From contig NC_092567.1 in assembly GCF_037975245.1 (NCBI RefSeq), forward strand, positions 19,412,876-19,476,875: a DNA stretch of 64,000 nucleotides, given 5' to 3'. Positions 246-42,868 of this stretch are shown here, piece after piece (the stretch's first letter is position 1; each line of letters starts with the position of its first letter). A model generated the notes under the pieces. It was not told the origin of the DNA and made no database searches. It saw nothing but the letters and a program-made list of their open reading frames with translations. The position numbers were made by a program, and so were the translations under genes. Origin of the DNA: Apostichopus japonicus. Taxonomy: Eukaryota; Echinodermata; Holothuroidea; Aspidochirotida; Stichopodidae.

Positions 246-3200
246 CTTGAAGGAAAACGAATTGAGTAACTTTCAGAAAGGGGTTGCCAGGGCTGGTGGA
301 ACCAGGATTTAAAAAGGTAGTGGAATTGGCCCTAGGGTCCATGAAGCCCCCCCTTTCCTTCCCTCCACAAAAAAAATAACATTTTAGATGGCAAATGGTG
401 CATCCTGAGGCATACTCAGACTTTCAAGTAGGTACACAATTAGGTCTTAAAGTACAGTTAATGCTAAATAACTGCTTTGAAGTTTTTGTGAGGTTTAAAA
501 AGAGGGCATGTAGTCCCCCCCCCCCCCCGTCCCCCTGGATCTGTACCTTGCAGCCTAAAAGAGTGTCTTTAGGCACATCATTAGTTTTGTTATGTTGAAG
601 CCTGGGTTGTACTGCTATACCAATAGTTTAAGGTTTGCAAAATATGGCTCATCAATGTAAGTGGCTGGACTACTTAGTCTAACACACAGACTGAAGGTGG
701 GGAGGTAGGCTGACTACTTTCCACAGGATCAGAGGTATATAGAAAGCATCCAATGAACAACAGGCCCTAGAATTCACAAATATAGCCACATGCTCTAAAA
801 TGAAAGTGCTTGAACCATCTAGCTCAAATCAAGTCCTCATTTGACATTTTTCATGAATTCAAACACACATCAGTACTGTATAGGCTTATGAGAGGAGACC
901 AATAATATTTGCTGATAATGAGCAGTATGGTAAGGTTTATGTTAGGAATGAAAATCGTGTAGATACTTTGACTGATGATCGTTCATCAACTTAGAATGTG
1001 TTGATTTTATCGTTTTTTTAATGTCTGACTGGCAGAAAAATACGAGGGTATTTTATTTTACAGGCAAACTGCAAAATCTTCTAGCATTACGCCACAAAAA
1101 AGAGCCCAAAGTTTCAAGGTCTGAAAACGAAATCGAAAATGCAATTCCTAGCGGGAAGTTCAGTCATTTCCAAATCGTGCTCTTTAAAATTTTTCCATGT
1201 GGGATTAAATTTGAAAATAAAATACAAATCATATTTATTCCATTTTTACGACTTTTTTTTCAAAAAGGAGGCCTGAAACCCACCATATCCTGTCATTTCA
1301 AAGGGTGTGAAGACTTGCACACAAAGAAACGTCTCATGCCGGTTATCTGACCTAGTTTCGAATGAGGTGTAACAGAAGTGTTAGACACCACCATCGATCC
1401 CAGAAAATACACACACAGCTTGCTACCATCGGTAATTAGACACTAGTGTACAGTCAATACATACAGCTACGGTCAATACCCACAGCACAGTGTACATAGC
1501 AGCGATGGACATCTCAGGTCCAGCTAAAGATATTAAGGTATCACGTTTCACTACTGTCTGCATTTTGTAGCGACACGAACAAAACATCACTTGCAAGCAA
1601 CGGAAAGTTAACTTTTTTTAGATGGCCGCACGCGGTTTGGGGCGAGTCTTCAATGCCTTTTAACACTCACCTATATCGCCTAAAATGTTTTCAACCACTG
1701 TACGTCCATCGTTGGTCTTGTCACTTTTATTAGACGTCCCATTCGATTCGTCTGGGTCTCTGTTACCGGAAAAATAAAATGCCCCAAAATTAAATAATGG
1801 CGAGAATCACAATTGAACAACTTTGTTATTACAGTAATATAGCAAGTATTTTGTCTGGAGATAGTGTCTGGATAAAGAATCTGGATATAGTTTCTGGATA
1901 TAGTGTCTGGATATAGCGTTGGGATATAGTGTCTGGATATAGTGCCTAGATATAGCGCCTGGATACAGCGTCTGAATATAGTGTTGGGATAGTGTCTGGA
2001 TATAGGGCCTAGATATAGTGTCTGGATATAGCGCCTGGATTTAGTGTCTGGTTATAGCATCTGGATATAGTGTCTGGATATAGTGCCTAGATATAGCGCC
2101 TGGCTACAGCGTCTAAATATAGTGTTGGGATATAGTGTCTGGATATAGGGCCTAGATATAGTGTCTGGATATAGCGCCTGGATACAGTGTCTGGATATAG
2201 GGCCTAGATATAGCGCCTGGATACACCTTCTGGATATAGTGTTGGGATAGTGTCTGGATATAGGGCCTAGATATAGTGTCTGGTTATAGCATCTGGATAT
2301 AGTGTCTGGATATAGTGCCTAGATATAGCGCCTGGATACAGCGTCTAAATATAATGTTGGGATATAGTGTCTGGATATAGGGCCTAGATATAGTGTCTGG
2401 ATATAGCGCCTGGATACAGTGTCTGGATATAGGGCCTAGATATAGCGCCTGGATACACCTTCTGGATATAGTGTTGGGATAGTGTCTGGATATAGGGCCT
2501 AGATATAGTGTCTGGATATAGCATCTGGATATAGTGTCTGGATATAGTGCCTAGATATAGTGCCTGGATACAGTGTCTGGATATAGGGCCTAGATATAGT
2601 GTCTGGATATAGCGCCTGGATACAGTGTCTGGATATAGTGTTGGGATAGTGTCTGGATATAGGGCCTAGATATAGTGTCTGGATATAGCATCTGGATATA
2701 GTGTCTGGATATAGCGCCTGGATACAGTGTCTGGATATAGGGCCTAGATATAGCGCCTGGATACACCTTCTGGATATAGTGTTGGGATAGTGTCTGGATA
2801 TAGGGCCTAGATATAGCGTCTGGTTATAGCATCTGGATATAGTGTTGGGATATAGTGTCTGGATATAGGGCCTAGATAAAGTGTCTGGATATAGCATCTG
2901 CATATAGTGTCTGGATATAGTGTCTGGATATAGTGCCTAGATATAGAGCCTGGATACAACGTCTGGATATAGCGTTTAGATATAGTGTCTGGATATAGGG
3001 CCTAGATACAGCGTCTGGATATAGTGTTGGGATATAGCGCCTGGATATAGTGTCTGGATATAGGGCCTAGATACAGCGTCTGGATATAGTGTTGGGATAT
3101 AGCGCCTGGATATAGTGTCTGGATATAGTGTCTGGATATAGTGTCTGGATATAGGGCCTGGATATAGCATCTGGATATATCGTCTGGATATAGCGTCTGG

Positions 3201-6200
3201 ATATAGCATTTAGATATAGTGTAGGTCAGGGCTCAAATTGAGCATTGAGATGGACAAGGCAATTTTTAGGGCAAGTCAGAAATTGCATTGGGTTTTCATT
3301 GAATAGGCAAGGCAAAACAACAAGTTTTCACCTGCCAAACCAGCACCGAGGTATTTTTGGTTATAAGTGATATAAAATATGCTTGACGTAGCATATTCTC
3401 AGTAGCTTAACTCAAATTGAGTTGTAGCTGTGAACTGAGTGAAATTAAGGCAATAAATCAAGAGATTCCATTCTAAGCCACAGATACAGGGTGATGCAGT
3501 GTTTTAACATATGTTTAGAATCTCATTAGGTTAATTGGAATCCTGGTGAGGATGTGGAGTTGGTGAAAGTTGGAAATAATTCAAGAGATTCTATTCCAAG
3601 CCGCAGATGGTCTTAGTTTACGTATTGAGATAACAATATGCAGAAAGAAAAATAAACACAAAAATGAAGAAAAACAAGAAGAAGAGGAAGAAACATGAAA
3701 ACTCACAAGATCAAAGTATTGGTAGAGACTATGTACTCCACTTCTTTCGTCCAAGGATTACGAAAGCAGAACAATTTGGACTTGAATTTGAGAAAAGAAC
3801 CATTTTTAGCACGAAATCTGTATACTTTTGTTTCGACCTTCTCCTTCTTCAATAAGACTGTCGAGAGAGGACAAAGACAGAGTGAGAGACAAGAGAAAGA
3901 TAAATACATCAGAGGGTGGAAGTACCTCTAATATTGAGACAGGAAGGGAACATCTGTTATCACAATTGATGATGGATCAGAATCTTAGGGTTGAATGTTT
4001 GTACATTGCGATAGAAATAGGGCATTTTGCGTCCATGTCAAATCTTCTGTCTCTTCTATGGTTTTTCAAGATATTCATCTGCAGTATACTGTTAAATGTC
4101 GGAAAATGTACTATGACAGCAAAAAGCAGTCTAAGCCAACGTCAGATAATACTTAAAGCAGCATTTTGCCTCCTTTTTAATGATTTTTCTCAACCTCACT
4201 GACTCCAATATGCCATAACGACAAACATAACTAGCTTATCTATTTAAATCTTACTTCAAATGGTGGCATAAAAGTCGAAAAATTTGCAACTTTCAACTTT
4301 GTTTATCTCCAAGATATTTTCCGTTGGGATCCCAATAAACCTTGCCCATAATATGAATATTTAAACACTACGAGCGTCATTGACCAATACGTAATACAAC
4401 ACCATGCCTTATTTGTGTACAGTCTATATGGCAGTTGTACCAGGCAGTTCCATAACAACTCCCTGGTTGTACCAACGCAAAGTCTTGAATCTATTTTTAG
4501 CAACGGCTCATAACTAAACCTGCATCTCTGATTGGTTGAACTCTGAGTGGGTTTGGGGGAATTGTATGCGATTAATTTTAAATGTTGAATTTGTCGTGGA
4601 CACTTTTCTCATTATCTGCAAATATCCTTAATTACTCGCCAATTAACGTTGTTGGCAGGGAGAAACTTGGCTAATATCTTAGTTTGCTGTTATGTGATTG
4701 ATATAAGTAAAAAACTTGATGGACATATCAAAAAAAAGTAGAAAACGGCGACCAAACGCAAAATGCTGCTTTAAAGGAAGAGGTTCTCACCTGCGTAATG
4801 ATTTTCAGCCATCTGCTTGATATCACCGACGTGGATGTATTCATAACAGGATGTACCTAATAACTCTTGAGGTAGATATCCCAAAATGGATGTTGCTCTA
4901 AACAAGATTTAAAAGAAAAAGAAATTATAAAAAAAAAAAAAAATTATCACATGGTTCTCATGCTTGTGAACAAATAAAATGTCAGACTTTTTTCATGACC
5001 AAAAACATGTTTTCCAGTTTGCTACAACAGGAATTTATTACCTGGTTCCCCATGTTTTCAAACAAATAAAAATTCCACACATTTTCAAGAATAGAAAACA
5101 TGTTTTACAGTTTACCATAAAAGCCTAACAACTCATTTGGAACTAATGTATAGGTCACTTATTGCAGACCCTTACAATTGCAACTTGTGTTTAAAAGTGT
5201 TGCTAATTCCTATCGTTAAAATGGCTTCAGTAAGATGTTCAAGCAACCAAAAACACGGCATTCCATAATGTAACATTTCACCACAGTTTGTTCTATGCCA
5301 TTAGCTTTATCGCACATCTTAAACGCTAAATGCTCAAGTCTTAGTATAGTGTACTAGTCTAGGCCTAGCTGTAATATCCAACACATCATAGAATCGTTAG
5401 GCTACACGCATTGTCTCTGCTTAATTGCATAAAGGCTAGGAGAGAAAATTACAATCTTTGGAACAGATATATTAATACTTGATCACTCCAGCCTATTTTT
5501 ATTACTTATCAAGATGCCTGCTAACAAGAAGAATTGTTCAAATCAGGATTTAATCTCACTTTTCCAGAATTAATTTCAAAATGCCTAAAAAATTAAGGAC
5601 TTTCAAGTGTCAGGTTTTCAAACTTTCTGGACTGCATGTGATTTTTCCTGTTTTCCAGACTGTGTGATTTTCCTGTTTTCCAGACTTCATGTGGAGGGGG
5701 GGGGGGGGGAGATGGTGGTATAAATACAACTAATTGCTGTTATACATCTATCAAAACAACATCATTGATGATGGTATCGAACCTTTGATCTACAAATGTG
5801 AATTTGCCATCCATAGCTTGTCTGGATACAAATTGATAACAAGCCTCTTGCCCGCCTCCTGGAGGGTGACCCATCTCGTGGACGTCTTGTGTAGTCTGAG
5901 AAAGAGACAGACGTAAGAAATAAATTGTATGAACCATATAAAAAGCACAAAGAAATTATCAGTAAACCTTTCAAAAGAACACGTCAAATGAAAAAGCTGA
6001 TGTATTAATCAAACCCATTTTATGTGCAAGTATATTTCCCCACTAAATGGCACCATTTTATTTTGGTACAGTCGACTTGGAGCAGTCGACTTAAAACCAG
6101 TGGAGTGCATCTGAAATTTTCATGGTCAGCAAGGTACTGTCCAGTGTTAAGTTATACAAATATATCAAGACAGGTTAAAAGCTAAGAACAATTTGAAGGG

Positions 6201-9200: not shown

Positions 9201-12200
9201 AGCACATGGGAGGAAGGTCTAATGTCAGTCAAAATAGGTTATCTTCAATCAACCATATCTCGTGTTATGGACAAGATATTGACAAACAGGGATTTTCAAG
9301 TAACAGTGTGGAATATTTTGGTCTTTCAGATGGTTAGCATGAAACAGCTTACCCTTGATACACAAAGCGTATTGACGACAGATTCTGAAACGTACAGCAT
9401 TCTTCCTCGGTCACAGCTGACTACTACCAGGAAACCTTCAGCGCTCTACATAAATATGAAATATAGAACAAGAACAAGATTTTATTCAACTGATCAACTA
9501 TGCCCATTCTTCCCCCCCCCCCTCCCACCACTGTCACAGGATTCTCTGTGGTATATTTTTGTTAGTGATGGGAACGGGTCTCCCGGGAACCGACCCGAAA
9601 AAATTACAACCCCGTCCAAAGCCTTTACTACCTGATCCCGAACTTTGAATAAATTCACTAACATCATTCTACATTTCAGTTACATTTTTTATTTGAATTA
9701 ATGATTCATCATTTCGTGATATTCCCTTTAAACGTGAAGTGTAAAATTAGTCACAGTTGTGACTATTCCTTCCAGAGAACGTTTTGATCTTCTATATATG
9801 TTTTGTTTACTTTTACATGTGCACAATTTTATGTAAAGCCCAACAAATTCTTTTGAGGAATTCTTCAATCACGCAAACCACATTTTCATGAGCAATTTGT
9901 TCAATGGGTCATTGCACTTTTAGGCTTGAATGGCCATAGAGTTAACACACACTCGCAAGTTATGAAATCGTCTGCTGACTCTGCATCAAGAATCAAACTA
10001 AATGTACAGTTGTCAAAGCCTTTAAACAGACCTCACCTCTAAAATTAGGGACTTTAATTCATCATCCGAAAGGAAGGAAGGTTTATAGTTTGCCTCTTTA
10101 TAAGAACTAGGACAACCTGCAAAAGAACGAATTAAAAACTATATATTCATGACTCATCATTAAGAAACGTGTCTGCCCCTATGTACAGTACACTCTGTAC
10201 GATCTGCAGGACTATATAGTACAAATACATACATAAATATTTGTGAGGCCACCCAGTTGGGACAATTTTTCCTGCTTCAAAGCACTCGTATTGTCAGTAC
10301 GAGCAGTATGAATATCATGTTTCTATCAGATCAAGGTTAGGAACTGTTTGTACTGACAATACCAGTGCTTTAAGAGCATGATATTGGAGTACAGTTTAGA
10401 GAGGTATTAGCATTAGGAAATTGTCCCAACTGACTGGTAAGGTATAAAAAGTAATAAATATTATGAGTTATATGCATTAATAAATATTCATGAGGTATAT
10501 AATATTAATAAATATTCATGATGTATATGGTAGCTGTGTACCGGTGTTCCTTTCAAGCTGTAAATTGATTGCATCTGTGTATATAGTCAGACACTGATGG
10601 GAGGAGTGACTGAGGTCAGTCATTTATTAAACAAAAGGAATGTAAAAGGTCAAAAGATGGTTACATTTGAGATGCAAAACAATTCACAAGATCCATTTCA
10701 TAAAAAATATACACATTCACACTGTGTTTTATACTTTTCTGCATGCCGAGATGAAAAAGATTTAAATTCACCACGTGCATTCAAGTTTTCTTAGACTTTG
10801 AAAGGAGAGGGCAAGGGAGCTTATAAGAATTGGGACGGAGGGGTAACGGTCGGATCCTGGATTTTAAAACGAAGAGGGTGGGGCCATGGGGTTGTTGAAG
10901 CGGACTCCCATTCAGACTGGTCTGTGGGTCCTCTCCAAATGGGACCTGTGCCTGGGTTAAAATGGGGTGGTAGGAGGGAGACAAGGAAAGTACTGTTTCT
11001 TTCATGACAAATACCTCTGATGGTCTTCATGTGTTGCACAGCCATCCGTAGGATGGTCAGTTTATCCAATTTAGACTTCATGGCGTTGCAAGTTGGAATC
11101 ATGCCACTCAACTCCTGTATGTACGTGTTCATCTTCTCTCGTCTCTTCTTCTCGATTGCACTGTGGGTTTGTCTGGTGGTGATGAAATTTGTCAAAGTAA
11201 CATCATCTTCAGTTTTAAAGGATGACTTTAGGCCCCCCCCCCTCCCCAAAAAATAATTGAATTAATTTTGATACAGCGAGTGGTGTTTTTGTTGTAGACC
11301 ATATTAATACACTGCTATCAGTCCAGTTTGTAATTTTCTTTTTAAAAAACTTTTAATTATCTTTTGGAGAAATTACCATTTTCACTGACTGTGTCTGAGG
11401 TTCATCAATTGGCAGTGGCAGCTGGACTATACAGTTGAATACAAGGACCGTTGGGCCGGTTCGGCCCTCAGATGCGACACAAAAATCACCAAATGTCATT
11501 CAAGGATGATGCTCTGTCATATTTATGTCAAAAGTTAAACTTTTCTTCTTTGTTAGTTCCAAAAGGATATTACATTTTTCTTTAGAACACAAAGAGGTAA
11601 CGTTTTACATTTAGGGGCTGCATCGAGGAGTCGATGTAAATTTAGTTGTCATTAATGATATTAATATCTTAATTAATGAGATGAATATCTTACAGGTGAA
11701 TATCTTGGCAAGGGGAACGGTTATGGAAACATTACGTTAAAATTATGCCAACGGGTCATCCTCTGAAGATTCCCCAAAACATTTTGTAGAAAAAAAAAAT
11801 GTATTCTGTCACTTATCAAGAACTGGATTTTCCTTTCAAACCATTTCCAACAAAATTTGAAGTTTTTAACAATGCAACGACCATTGATCTCTACAATCCT
11901 ATCCCCCGGATATATAGACACTCGTTAACTACGGGACATAACATTGAATCCAGTATTACAACAAGGTTGTGGTTATCTCTGTAATCCACGGAATATCATC
12001 AGAATAGGCTTTTATACTTCACGAATGGTAGATATCGGAAAGAGGAGGTGATGGACAATGACCCGGATGATGGTCAAGGGGGGACGCAGGGGGGTTAATA
12101 ATTACCAGTTATTAGGCCAGGTAGATGGGAAGGTGCAATAGTAGAGTCGAGAGAGGTAAGAGAGGAAGGAGCGCAGTCAATCTCTGTTGTAATAACTCAA

Positions 12201-29800: not shown

Positions 29801-32465
29801 ACTGAATGGCAGGTTTTTTCCAGTTGGTTTACTGAGTGATCAGTTCCATCTTTTTGCACCTTAGTTGAGCTGCCTATTCGTCTATTATGCAATTCATCAC
29901 ACAGCTAGTAGCCAAATCGCTATCAGATTAAGGCAGACATGGCAAGGTGTGAACACATCAACTCTTCCAAACTAACCAGGCTGTTTGCAGAAGACATAAA
30001 GTTTCAGTAAGTTGAGGTCAAGAGAGCTGAAAGATGCAACCTATGGTTAATGGACTAATTCTCGTCATGTACACAAATACAACCTACTATTCAGTGGCAG
30101 AGCTAGGGTTATTGGTCAGAGAGGTGAGAATGGTCTGTAGGGGCGTTTTCGACACTATCAGAGCCGTATCTAAATATACGGCTCTGGACACTATCTAAGC
30201 GGAGCGCCACCACAGGTTGGCGCGAAGCGTACAGAATTTTTGGAGTAAAGATACTCCCTAGATCGCCGGAAATGACCCTTTCCGGGCCTTTCTAATTTGC
30301 AGATAAACGAAAAAAAAAATTAATGACCGTTAGAGCGTTTTGACAGAATATGTGACAAATGTCAATAGGTAGATGAGAGCGCAATAAAAAAGTCAATAAT
30401 CGCTAATAAGTAAAAAGTGGTAAAAAGCTGAAAAGGGCGCCGGCAGTCCATTTGAGTCCGTCAGGGGGGGCGAATGCCCCCCCCCCCTGACTATATGGAC
30501 GCTCCGCCACTGCTACTATTTACACTTACTTGTGAGGTGTAACACCAGGACCAGAGAGAAAGCAGACAGATTTACATTTATCGATGACAGATGGCAACGC
30601 TGCCAAATGAACTACAATATGTACTCCCATGGAATGTCCACAAATCATTTGTATCCTATGTGACAGGAGAAATAAAAAAATTAATGAAAAGTAATTCAAT
30701 GTTAATGAAAATTAGAAAAATGACTGGCTAATAGTACATTGGTGTAAATATCCGTCAGTAATAAGACTGTTTAGGATCGAACAGAACCGTTAAGTACTCA
30801 ACTGCTGAATATATTTGATGAGAATGGTCTATGATGCTACCATATGAGAAAGGTCCATGACAGGGAGGGGGAAATATGTGTCTGACCTTCCCCCTCCCTC
30901 CCACCCCATGAAAGGTTTTCAGAATATTTGTTCTACAAAACAGGTTCCAGCAGTACTCTGTCTGCCCCATAAAGAAAGTATTGCCCCACCGCCACCCCCT
31001 CTGAAAAATAAATCTAGCTATGCAATTGGAAGGTACATGGAAAACGTCTGTTCATACGACCAAAATCAGCTTTGGTGGACATCTGATGGACCATTGGTTT
31101 TTATCATAAAATCCAGAATGCATGAAAATAAATACACCCCCACCCCCAAACAGGTGAAATGATAGATTGGCATTGCCCTCTGTCACTTTTGAGATAGTTG
31201 TACAAAATCAGTTGTTGGCCTGCCATCCAACTAAAGGGGATTTTTACTGTCCCAAAGCTGGTGTTCTATTCACCACTACCTGCACATCTCTCCCACTGCC
31301 CTAACATGGTACATACAGTATTGGTCATTCTTTGTTATTCTGCAATATTTTTCAGACAACCAACATGTAAGACCTAGTTGTGCAAGGGACATCCAAAAAC
31401 AATGTTTAATTTTTTTTTTTAGGGTATCAACAAAATAAAGTGACCTTACTCTTCTATTTCTAGAGCCTCTATTAACCCTCGGATAATATCTGCTTTGTGC
31501 TTTGGACTATGATCATAACAACCAGACTCTGGCATTGGAGTCCATCCCATTCCTACGAGAAAAGAAAATGTAAAGGTGTTACTTGAATAATTATTTCAAT
31601 CACGTTTCATTTTGCAAGGCAGTGGTGTGTGCAAAAACACTGCATGGGGGGGGGGGGGGGAGGCTCAGTGGGACATAGCCCTTCCAACAACATCATCAGT
31701 CAAGGGTAAAATGTTCAGTGGGCTAAGAAATAGACCACTCCTACAGGCCAAAGTCCTTCCAAGAAGGTTCAAAACCACAAAGAGGTAGAAACCACATGAC
31801 ATCACAAAATATATTCTTTGTCAAGGTACCAAGCTTAAACAGTAGCTACCATCAATGCTGATACTTCATAAAACATTTTGTTTCTTCTTTGTTTATGTTC
31901 AGTCCATACTACAACCTTTAGCTGAGTTTGCTCAAATGTTTCCATGTCAGCAGTTTCACTTGTATACGTGTACTATGTGTGTGTAAGGGACAATGAGAAG
32001 AGTTTGGGGAGAGGGAAGAAGGTTTACGTTAGGTAACTTTCACCACTTTAGACTATCTTTTACTCTATCTCCATTCCCCATGAATAGAATAACTGACAAA
32101 CCTGGCAAGTTTGGTAATATCACTCGGTAGCCTTTCTCCACCAACGGTTCCGCCATCTTCTTGAACATCTTATGCGTTGCCGGGGCACCGTGCACACCTA
32201 TGACCACACCTCCATCATGGGGCCCAGCTTCAGCATAAACTAAATCTAATTCTTCTCCAAGAGCTGCTACTTTCTCAGTCTTAATCTCAAAGAAGGCTTT
32301 TTCCGTTTGGGTAATGCCCGATGAGGTATCATGTGATTGTGATTTGGCCATAACTGCGAGCATTTTATCAGGAGCTGTCTCTGTTTGAAGATTGCATGGG
32401 TATAGATAGATAAAGGATAAAAGTTCAGAGCTGGCTTTAGAGGCATTTGCTGATTGTTTCAACAT
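26751..32465 (-). CDS. Alpha/beta hydrolase fold protein, complete (360 aa)
   Basis: Exons (minus strand): 32465-32102, 31552-31450, 30655-30530, 29125-28936, 27733-27556, 26872-26751; all introns are GT-AG and total 1083 nt, 361 codons with stop. The start ATG has an in-frame TGA eight codons upstream. Visible features: HGAP (92-95), the strand-turn that forms the oxyanion hole; GHSMG (162-166) with nucleophile Ser164; HGDND (280-284) supplying the acid, probably Asp284; GDHF with His335. Residues 208-228 are hydrophobic and aromatic, perhaps a lid or membrane-touching helix. The arrangement recalls the invertebrate family Pfam DUF1057 (PF06342), but that assignment is from memory and uncertain; substrate unknown. 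Codon phases and conserved triad argue for a functional gene. It is divergent from RPS13. Confidence 0.9.
27556..27733 (-). CDS. Hydrolase exon 5 (catalytic acid)
   Basis: It encodes GMGALVVHGDNDWFIQLEIA, with the late beta-strand and candidate acid Asp284 (or Asp282). Donor CAAAG|GTGAGA. Confidence 0.92.
28936..29125 (-). CDS. Hydrolase exon 4 (cap region)
   Basis: It encodes the cap, including the hydrophobic segment around residues 208-228 and KTKMSQVYSVYEVALFNWEE. Acceptor TTTCAG, donor GAGGAG|GTGAGC. Confidence 0.9.
29527..29742. repeat. Dispersed repeat, copy 1 (partner at 31058)
   Basis: The block starting gaccaaaatcagctttggtg recurs at 31058-31220 with about 85-90% likeness, in the same orientation, in two introns of the hydrolase. 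A second sub-block (taagcctgcaagggcagaaa) occurs at about 29485 and 29722. Confidence 0.88.
29743..30072. mobile_element. 330-bp element with imperfect 40-bp TIRs
   Basis: The left end gtacatgccacgaaagtg...ataggttgcatc is inverted at the right (gatgcaacctat...gtcatgtac). It is non-coding, in a hydrolase intron, next to the hAT-like element at 30092. Confidence 0.75.
30092..30512. mobile_element. hAT-like non-autonomous element with 8-bp TSD
   Basis: The termini CAGTGGCAGAGC and GCTCCGCCACTG are inverted. Flanks are identical 8-mers CTACTATT (30084-30091 and 30513-30520), the hAT hallmark. It contains the ctaagcggagcgccacc repeat shared with 21.3, 36.7 and 37.8 kb. Internal G and C runs flank the right end. 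Confidence 0.92.
30530..30655 (-). CDS. Hydrolase exon 3 (nucleophile elbow)
   Basis: It encodes IQMICGHSMGVHIVVHLAA with Ser164 in GHSMG. A hAT-like MITE and its target duplication end only about 9 bp past this exon's donor. Confidence 0.93.
31058..31220. repeat. Dispersed repeat, copy 2
   Basis: Partner of 29527-29700, including ggtttttatcataaaatcca and the C-rich run. Confidence 0.88.
31450..31552 (-). CDS. Hydrolase exon 2
   Basis: It encodes MGWTPMPESGCYDHSPKHKA and DIIRGLIEALEIE, the segment before the nucleophile strand. Donor AGAAGA|GTAAGG. Confidence 0.9.
32102..32465 (-). CDS. Hydrolase exon 1 (start, oxyanion loop)
   Basis: It encodes a 60-residue N-terminus without clear signal peptide, then VVIGVHGAPATHKMFKKMAE and GYRVILPNLPG. 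The HG[AS]P turn is typical of the fold. Donor CCAG|GTTTGT. Confidence 0.92.
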
Positions 32466-32789
32466 ACTAGACTTCCTATAGGAACTTCAGAGTAATAAAA
32501 GTAATCTTTACAAAACCAATCCCTTTCCCACCTCTCCCATCAACACCTTATTCTTATGTTTTGATCAAGCATAGCCTAGGGCCGTATGCATTTTGGTAAA
32601 TTTATCCTAGGTCTAGACTACGTTAGGCTCAACTGTTATCATCACTTTTCAGAGTCCACAGAAACAGAATAATTCTTTTTCTTGGCCTAGTTTGTCTCCC
32701 CTACCATCTTCAATCAAAGATGAGCCAACATTCCTAATCCTAGGCCTCACTTGTACTACACACACGCAAACTGTTAGCACTGTTTAGTA

Positions 32790-32975
32790 CTTTTTTTAAG
32801 GAAAAGTCGCCCAGGAAAGAACCTGGGCACGAAAACCAACTACCAAACGACTGATCCGCTCTCAACTCCAGTCCCCTTGCATCGGGACTGTGACTGTGTG
32901 ATCATCGTCGGGTGTGCATCACCATTCCCCTCGAAATGGAACAGATACTACACATGATCTTAGCCAAAAGGATGA
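32790..32975 (-). mobile_element. U2 snRNA-derived SINE or chimeric retroposon
   Basis: On the minus strand it starts CCTTTTGGCTAAGATCATGT followed by GTAGTATCTGTTC, matching about nucleotides 13-45 of U2 snRNA including the branch-site-pairing GUAGUA. The rest (about 140 nt) is not U2: there is no Sm site. Near the 3' end lies a CCCAGG/CCTGGG hairpin, then a 7-A tail. Flanks are a perfect 17-bp duplication (TACTAAACAGTGCTAAC on the minus strand; 32773-32789 and 32976-32992), so it was inserted by LINE machinery. Confidence 0.88.
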
Positions 32976-33259
32976 GTTAGCACTGTTTAGTATTACTAGT
33001 AATAGTATGTATGGTCTGGTCTAAACTAGAACTGTACTACTACTACTAGTAGCATGGTGACTTCGAAGTTCGGACACTTAAGACTTAAAACACCCCAAAA
33101 CTAAATCTTCTGGTATAAATCACCAGAAAATATACTTCATATGGTGGGAGAATTGTGTTATAGTAGGATACACGGCCAAACTTTCTTTCCTGTAAACTGT
33201 TTTCACGTTGTTTTCCAAGAAGATTCTTCGTGATTGTGGAACTGGTATTTCTTTGCTAG

Positions 33260-39405: not shown

Positions 39406-42868
<3,463 letters not shown>

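Follow-up and report, generated by a model that had tools for sequence, protein, structure and literature searches.

SINEs that begin with snRNA sequence pose a puzzle of transcription: because snRNA promoters lie upstream, an snRNA head should not bring transcription with it. This question is raised by a 186-bp retroposon on the minus strand (positions 32790-32975) of a 64,000-nucleotide stretch of the Apostichopus japonicus genome, hereafter the window, which carries a U2 snRNA-derived 5' end and lies between perfect 17-bp repeats. The element apparently owes its U2 head to source copies located within U2 genes, where the U2 promoter drives their transcription. We consider it quite probable that the window element is an off-target daughter of a SINE that resides in U2 snRNA genes, is moved by U2-targeting LINEs and, as long as it is resident, relies on the U2 promoter for its transcription. 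A single genome shows the sources, the site-specific LINEs and the daughters together, so that residence can be tested as the supplier of the promoter.

Structure of the Element in the Window

The features of the element, in window coordinates, are the following:

32773-32789: target-site duplication, 3' copy relative to the element, 17/17 identical to 32976-32992
32790-32797, minus strand: 3' end of the element, A7 then one G, read from the sequence
32798-32938, minus strand: SINE body, about 140 nt, unrelated to U2; no match to the intact U2 unit, same body inside the U2 genes of contig C16
32810-32827, minus strand: CCCAGG/CCTGGG hairpin near the 3' end, read directly and also predicted in the fold of a U2-resident copy
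32939-32971, minus strand: U2 head, nt 13-45 of the host U2 snRNA, 33/33 identical
32972-32975, minus strand: four extra 5' letters, TCAT, either altered U2 or untemplated
32976-32992: target-site duplication, 5' copy relative to the element, 17/17 identical to 32773-32789

The first-pass annotation had described a U2-headed retroposon with a perfect 17-bp target duplication, a body of about 140 nt unrelated to U2, a hairpin and an A7 tail, and this description was confirmed. The duplication reads GTTAGCACTGTTTAGTA on the plus strand at both 32773-32789 and 32976-32992, and the head includes a host-specific T (GATCATGTG). The intact 645-bp U2 unit, compared with the body at E 1 and word size 7, gave no match, which shows that the body does not come from an ordinary U2 gene extended at its 3' end. 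The Rfam U2 match to the window copy (28.2 bits, E 0.0012) lies below the gathering score of 46. No Rfam family reached its gathering score across the window and ARAGORN found no tRNA in it, so that a tRNA or other Rfam head was ruled out at the thresholds used.

Copy Number and Age of the SINE Family

The genome searched comprises 671,581,487 bases in 35 contigs, with the window on contig 7. At least 55 matches to the element were found, the best 40 of 2117 candidates being scored. Exact searches returned 999 matches to a 16-mer of the body (516 and 483 by strand), 511 to a 29-mer spanning the U2/body junction and 66 to a 36-nt tail pattern, while each of the reversed controls returned none; the element is thus multicopy and not single copy. 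Being short, dispersed, multicopy and devoid of an ORF, and having target-site duplications and an A-rich tail, it was classified as a SINE. Part of the copies are arranged in tandem clusters. For the published A. japonicus assembly, the SINE total is given as 159,644 bp, or 0.02% of the genome (PMC10344927).

Full-length copies start with ATCGCTTCTCGG, that is, at U2 nt 1, and carry a head of U2 nt 1-45, which in young copies is identical to the host U2 gene over its whole length. The window copy is therefore 5'-truncated, and the head of about 33 nt attributed to the element holds for this copy, whereas full-length copies have 45 nt.

Two sets of dispersed copies were used to assess age and target sites. 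A query made of U2 nt 1-45, the body and 8 nt of U2 3' flank, taken from a U2-resident copy (see below), gave at least 49 matches (best 40 of 2789 candidates scored), and the 37 dispersed loci among the matches listed to this query form the nearest-relative set. The tail-selected set consists of 53 copies from 52 loci chosen by their tail alone, regardless of the 3' flank. Mean identity to the resident copy was 99.2% for the nearest relatives (39 measured, with one neighbor at 79.1%) and, over the body, 93.4% for the tail-selected copies (43 measured). Because 18 of the 37 nearest relatives have neither mismatch nor gap against the resident copy over 190-194 nt (best match each), the family looks recently active. 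This bears out the earlier suggestion of a possibly active family, though not through the copy from which it was drawn: the window copy is 92.8% identical to the resident copy (180 aligned columns) and, judged by its sequence, is a member of an older subfamily, an older daughter, so that its perfect repeat is by itself no proof of current activity. One SINE is inserted at GTATTATGTTCC in the head of an older, diverged U2-headed relative (flank of locus L007, match 1501-1688), which suggests that the U2-headed family is long-lived.

SINE Copies Resident in U2 Genes

To locate U2 genes carrying the SINE, we used a pattern joining U2 promoter-proximal sequence, U2 nt 1-45 and the start of the body, with up to 3 mismatches allowed. 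The four matches obtained all lie in the U2 array of contig C16 (reversed control, 0). Three of them are SINE bodies in U2 genes, and one is a LINE copy, of the family termed LINE-A below, joined after the same nt 45. In each of the three resident SINE copies the body follows U2 nt 45 and the U2 upstream region has been preserved; the 500 nt upstream of SINE-carrying units differ from an intact unit by 0-1 nt (5 occurrences read). The order within a resident unit is U2 upstream region, U2 nt 1-45, body, CTTAAAAA, GTATCTGTTC and the remaining U2, so that U2 nt 36-45 are duplicated on both sides of the SINE.

The 3' junctions were surveyed with a 35-place pattern composed of the U2 3' half and the letters preceding it, the first letter of which excluded LINE-A, LINE-B and LINE-D junctions. 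The 70 U2 3'-half junctions matched comprise 60 of the intact type (4 on C15 and 56 on C16), 6 of the SINE and 4, reading ACTTGAAAGAAAGT, of LINE-C. All six SINE 3' junctions found read ...AAAAAGTA/TCTGTTC, where the slash marks the junction, at U2 nt 38/39. The 5' junctions that accompany this common 3' boundary are of no fewer than four kinds: nt 45 followed by CCC (three cases), nt 53 followed by CTGACG (one), nt 53 followed by GGATCAG after LINE-C (one) and a tandem pair (one), with U2 reading to nt 53 in the truncated resident copies. The differing 5' junctions at a single 3' boundary indicate repeated insertion at one U2 site. None of the six SINE junctions represents the older subfamily that includes the window copy, and the U2 source of this subfamily is therefore presumed lost.

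The predicted fold of the resident SINE RNA (MFE -74 kcal/mol, z -4.0) contains the CCCAGG/CCTGGG hairpin and a terminal stem whose 3' arm, AAAAAGU, is the A-run plus GU. In a simple promoter scan of one resident copy, A-box-like words with 1 mismatch occurred at 4 places and no B box was found at the thresholds used. Since no B box was found and an intact U2 upstream region precedes the resident copies, the head is probably not an internal promoter of the tRNA-like kind.

LINE Families at the Same U2 Site

Four LINE families, LINE-A to LINE-D, are inserted in the C16 U2 genes at the U2 site of the SINE. The array lies at about 31.00-31.17 Mb (loci L017, L057-L060, L113, L114 and L122), and several of its LINE copies are near-identical and have open ORFs. 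LINE-A (ORF1 of 410 aa, ORF2 of 1157 aa) is represented by six copies with a C-terminal ORF2 identity of 99-100%, plus fragments, and LINE-B (ORF1 of 510 aa, ORF2 of 1162 aa) by six copies that are 100% identical over the 390 aa compared, three LINE-B copies occupying consecutive U2 units. LINE-C, 47-49% identical to LINE-B, was found in five places and LINE-D, 42% identical, in three. Pfam searches of LINE-A and LINE-B identified APE and RVT_1 domains and a zinc-knuckle ORF1 in these two families, and LINE-C and LINE-D were recognized as their relatives with open frames.

The 3' ends of LINE-B, LINE-C and LINE-D read ...ACTTGAAAGAAA(A)GTA/TCTGTTC and that of the SINE reads ...ACTTTTTCTTAAAAAGTA/TCTGTTC, whereas LINE-A ends in ...TTAAAAGAAA/TCTGTTC (AAAGAAA/TCTGTTC, at nt 39). 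The SINE and LINE-B, LINE-C and LINE-D thus have the terminal pattern ACTT...AAAGTA in common at the same U2 site; as a tie between the SINE and these LINEs this pattern, which was noticed post hoc, is suggestive only. The proposal that the CCCAGG/CCTGGG hairpin could be the LINE recognition element was not upheld by the comparison with LINE 3' ends, which yielded the short terminal pattern but no shared hairpin: the hairpin is absent from the 3' ends of LINE-A to LINE-D and of the dispersed LINE relatives fetched. In BLAST comparisons of the body with LINE-A, LINE-B and the examined 3' parts of LINE-C and LINE-D, only pieces of chance length were aligned. The possibility that the SINE is a deleted form of the LINE-A copy in L017 was rejected, as the ends differ.

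Many LINEs with 34-38% identity to the ORF2 of LINE-A cluster densely on C17 (15-26 Mb), C16 and C11 (e.g., L048-L053), and open frames of about 1150 aa are common among them; a clustered or site-specific relative is possible.

Dispersed Copies and Their Target Sites

Among the 37 nearest dispersed loci, the match to the resident copy starts at U2 nt 1 in 26, at nt 2 in 7, at nt 3 in 1, at nt 4 in 2 and at nt 7 in 1. The U2 promoter word GTTATCGTTATCGCTTCTC occurs in none of the 114 dispersed loci (8 + 17 + 52 + 37). Because the daughters start at U2 nt 1 without the promoter word, the inserted molecule appears to have begun at the U2 start site.

In relatives of the window copy GTA, the U2 trinucleotide immediately before the cut site, often comes after the A-run. 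The 3' ends of the nearest relatives are biased in this respect, since the query held 8 nt of U2 3' flank. In the 53 tail-selected copies, the first letter after the A-run is G in 39, the second T in 33, the third A in 36 and the fourth T in 29, and those beyond are near background (binomial p against flank composition of 6e-17, 5e-7, 4e-8 and 8e-5, respectively); 14 of the 53 have no G after the A-run. A repeat of at least 8 nt was found in 14 of 32 tail-selected copies, 21 of the 53 having been dropped for want of a recognized head, and in the empty sites of those 14 the three positions about the nick are occupied by T, A and T, each in 10 of the 14. In the nearest-relative set, where one of 38 copies was dropped for the same reason, such a repeat was found in 31 of 37, and A precedes the nick in 24 of these 31, a count in which selection bias is possible. 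One dispersed target (L127) itself reads GTATCTGT. In addition, the A-run of a SINE was found 14 times joined exactly to GTATCTGTTCCC, the U2-like site of the SINE head, and only one of these cases lies in the U2 array. These exact joins indicate that dispersed SINE heads act as secondary U2 sites.

Origin of the U2 Head

We propose that resident copies are transcribed from the U2 promoter. As this promoter would drive the resident copy, the RNA would consist of U2 nt 1-45, the body, the A-run and a piece of the U2 3' flank. The helper would be a LINE that targets U2, most probably one from the B/C/D group, and would deliver the SINE RNA either to a further U2 gene or, when off target, to sites similar to ...TA/T. 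In an on-target event the head would merge with the identical U2 target sequence, while in an off-target event it would be inserted along with the body, giving rise to a promoterless U2-headed copy. Such loss of the promoter would explain that dispersed copies need not serve as sources, and their 45-nt head, as a small U2 target, may account for part of the tandem clusters. On the question of the helper, the LINE-A end differs from that of the SINE, and the SINE 3' hairpin occurs in no LINE examined. Also counting against the proposal are the 14 of 53 tail-selected copies that lack a G after the A-run and the modest share of such copies (14 of 32) with a repeat of at least 8 nt.

The head could also have arisen by template jumping, in which the reverse transcriptase of a LINE switched from SINE RNA to U2 snRNA and the resulting chimera went on to multiply like any other SINE. 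After a template jump, copying of the second RNA should start from its 3' end, whereas the head of the SINE is the 5' part of U2 (nt 1-45). One junction is common to the 511 exact copies, the same junction is found in U2 genes with an intact upstream region, and the GTA after the A-run would be left unexplained. This explanation is already weakened by the resident copies and we regard it as unlikely, even though template jumps of R2 elements to U12 snRNA and tRNA at the 5' end are reported (PMC3414825).

Equally improbable is an origin of the head elsewhere, with the SINE propagating by itself and the copies in U2 genes being secondary, owing to a preference of the head or of the enzyme for U2. 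The head does make U2 a homologous target, and none of the junctions seen offers a resident counterpart for the older dispersed copies; however, the heads reach exactly U2 nt 1 without the promoter, the simple scan found no B box, and 18 dispersed copies show no difference from the resident one, although identity alone gives no direction. An ordinary U2 pseudogene or 3'-extended U2 gene, to which the 28.2-bit Rfam match might point, was ruled out for practical purposes by the 999 body 16-mer matches, by the target repeats and A-run that mark the dispersed copies as a mobile family, and by the intact U2 unit, in which the body has no match.

If a residence in U2 genes is indeed the source of the dispersed copies, it would explain how the snRNA head was acquired, and the family would be a clear case of a SINE using U2-targeting LINEs, in which the off-target use of site-specific retrotransposition machinery can be read from many insertion sites.

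Comparison with Known Elements

In structure the family is close to SINEU, in that both are short non-autonomous retroposons and the U2-derived 5' end found here agrees with the U1- or U2-derived head that defines that group. SINEU elements, described by Kojima in 2015, are reportedly crocodilian SINEs with U1- or U2-derived heads; they are said to be prone to insert in a Mariner transposon, to be linked to Tx1-Mar LINEs and to have had their heads added recurrently. To our knowledge, the account of SINEU involves no gene-residence mechanism for the head. The sea cucumber family, whose head we explain by residence in U2 genes, would differ in this respect.

With regard to the target, LINE-A to LINE-D resemble Keno and Utopia, as they lie in U2 genes and the U2 sequence following them starts at nt 39 or beside it. 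According to PMC4640811 (section 6), the Utopia 3' flank starts at U2 nt 39 and the Keno 3' flank is identical; this published nt 39 is the T after GTA at the sea cucumber junctions. LINE-A and LINE-B are like Keno in having APE, RVT_1 and a zinc-knuckle ORF1, whereas Utopia has a restriction-like endonuclease. The likeness of LINE-A to LINE-D to Keno and the Tx1 clade is one of site and, for LINE-A and LINE-B, of domain content, which makes them candidate members. Unlike Keno and Utopia, the SINE itself has no ORF.

In the manner of the SIDEs of R2 type, the SINE is short and non-autonomous and occupies the target of a site-specific LINE; it would depend on a co-transcript of the gene and on target-primed reverse transcription (TPRT) by the LINE. 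SIDEs are, however, made of R2 or R1 end sequences, whereas the SINE body matches no examined LINE end in BLAST, and hundreds of dispersed sea cucumber copies carry the host-gene 5' flank. SINEs derived from tRNA, 7SL or 5S are similar in length, dispersal, target duplications, A-rich 3' end and a short terminal match to a LINE group; the present family differs from them in having no tRNA or Rfam match at gathering score and no B box found in the simple scan, and in a source promoter that would be of the pol II snRNA type.

Within the open-licence PMC papers searched, nothing on point was found on SINEs of echinoderms or sea cucumbers, and no earlier description of a U2-resident SINE with dispersed daughters, Kojima 2015 lying outside this set. 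The parts are known from SINEU, Keno and Utopia, and R2 SIDEs; their combination was not found in the literature searched. The life of the SINE may have two phases. In one, site-specific sources reside in U2 genes, where the U2 promoter, of the pol II snRNA type, would read them; in the other, daughters inserted off target have U2 nt 1-45 but no promoter. By extension, the snRNA heads of SINEs, including those of crocodilian SINEU, may arise by insertion into an snRNA gene rather than by template jumping. We regard this reading, taken as a whole, as about as likely as not.

Other Features of the Assembly and the Window

Contig 35 (16,099 bases) is mitochondrial. It uses the echinoderm code, with AAA read as Asn in the conserved GGFGN of COX1, and its nd1 and nd2 genes share the strand of cox1. 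Outside this contig, at 14745-31219 of contig C29, there are several COX1 matches that contain TGA codons and represent either a nuclear copy or a misassembled scaffold.

The window also contains a 13-bp tandem repeat of about 106 copies (1852-3222), a basic helix-loop-helix exon (10821-11261, minus strand) and a ribosomal S13/S15 N-terminal exon (40691-41122, plus strand). An open frame with weak alpha/beta-hydrolase matches is located at 32040-32486 on the minus strand, about 300 bp downstream of the SINE and on the same strand; the SINE may lie upstream of the first exon of the gene concerned.
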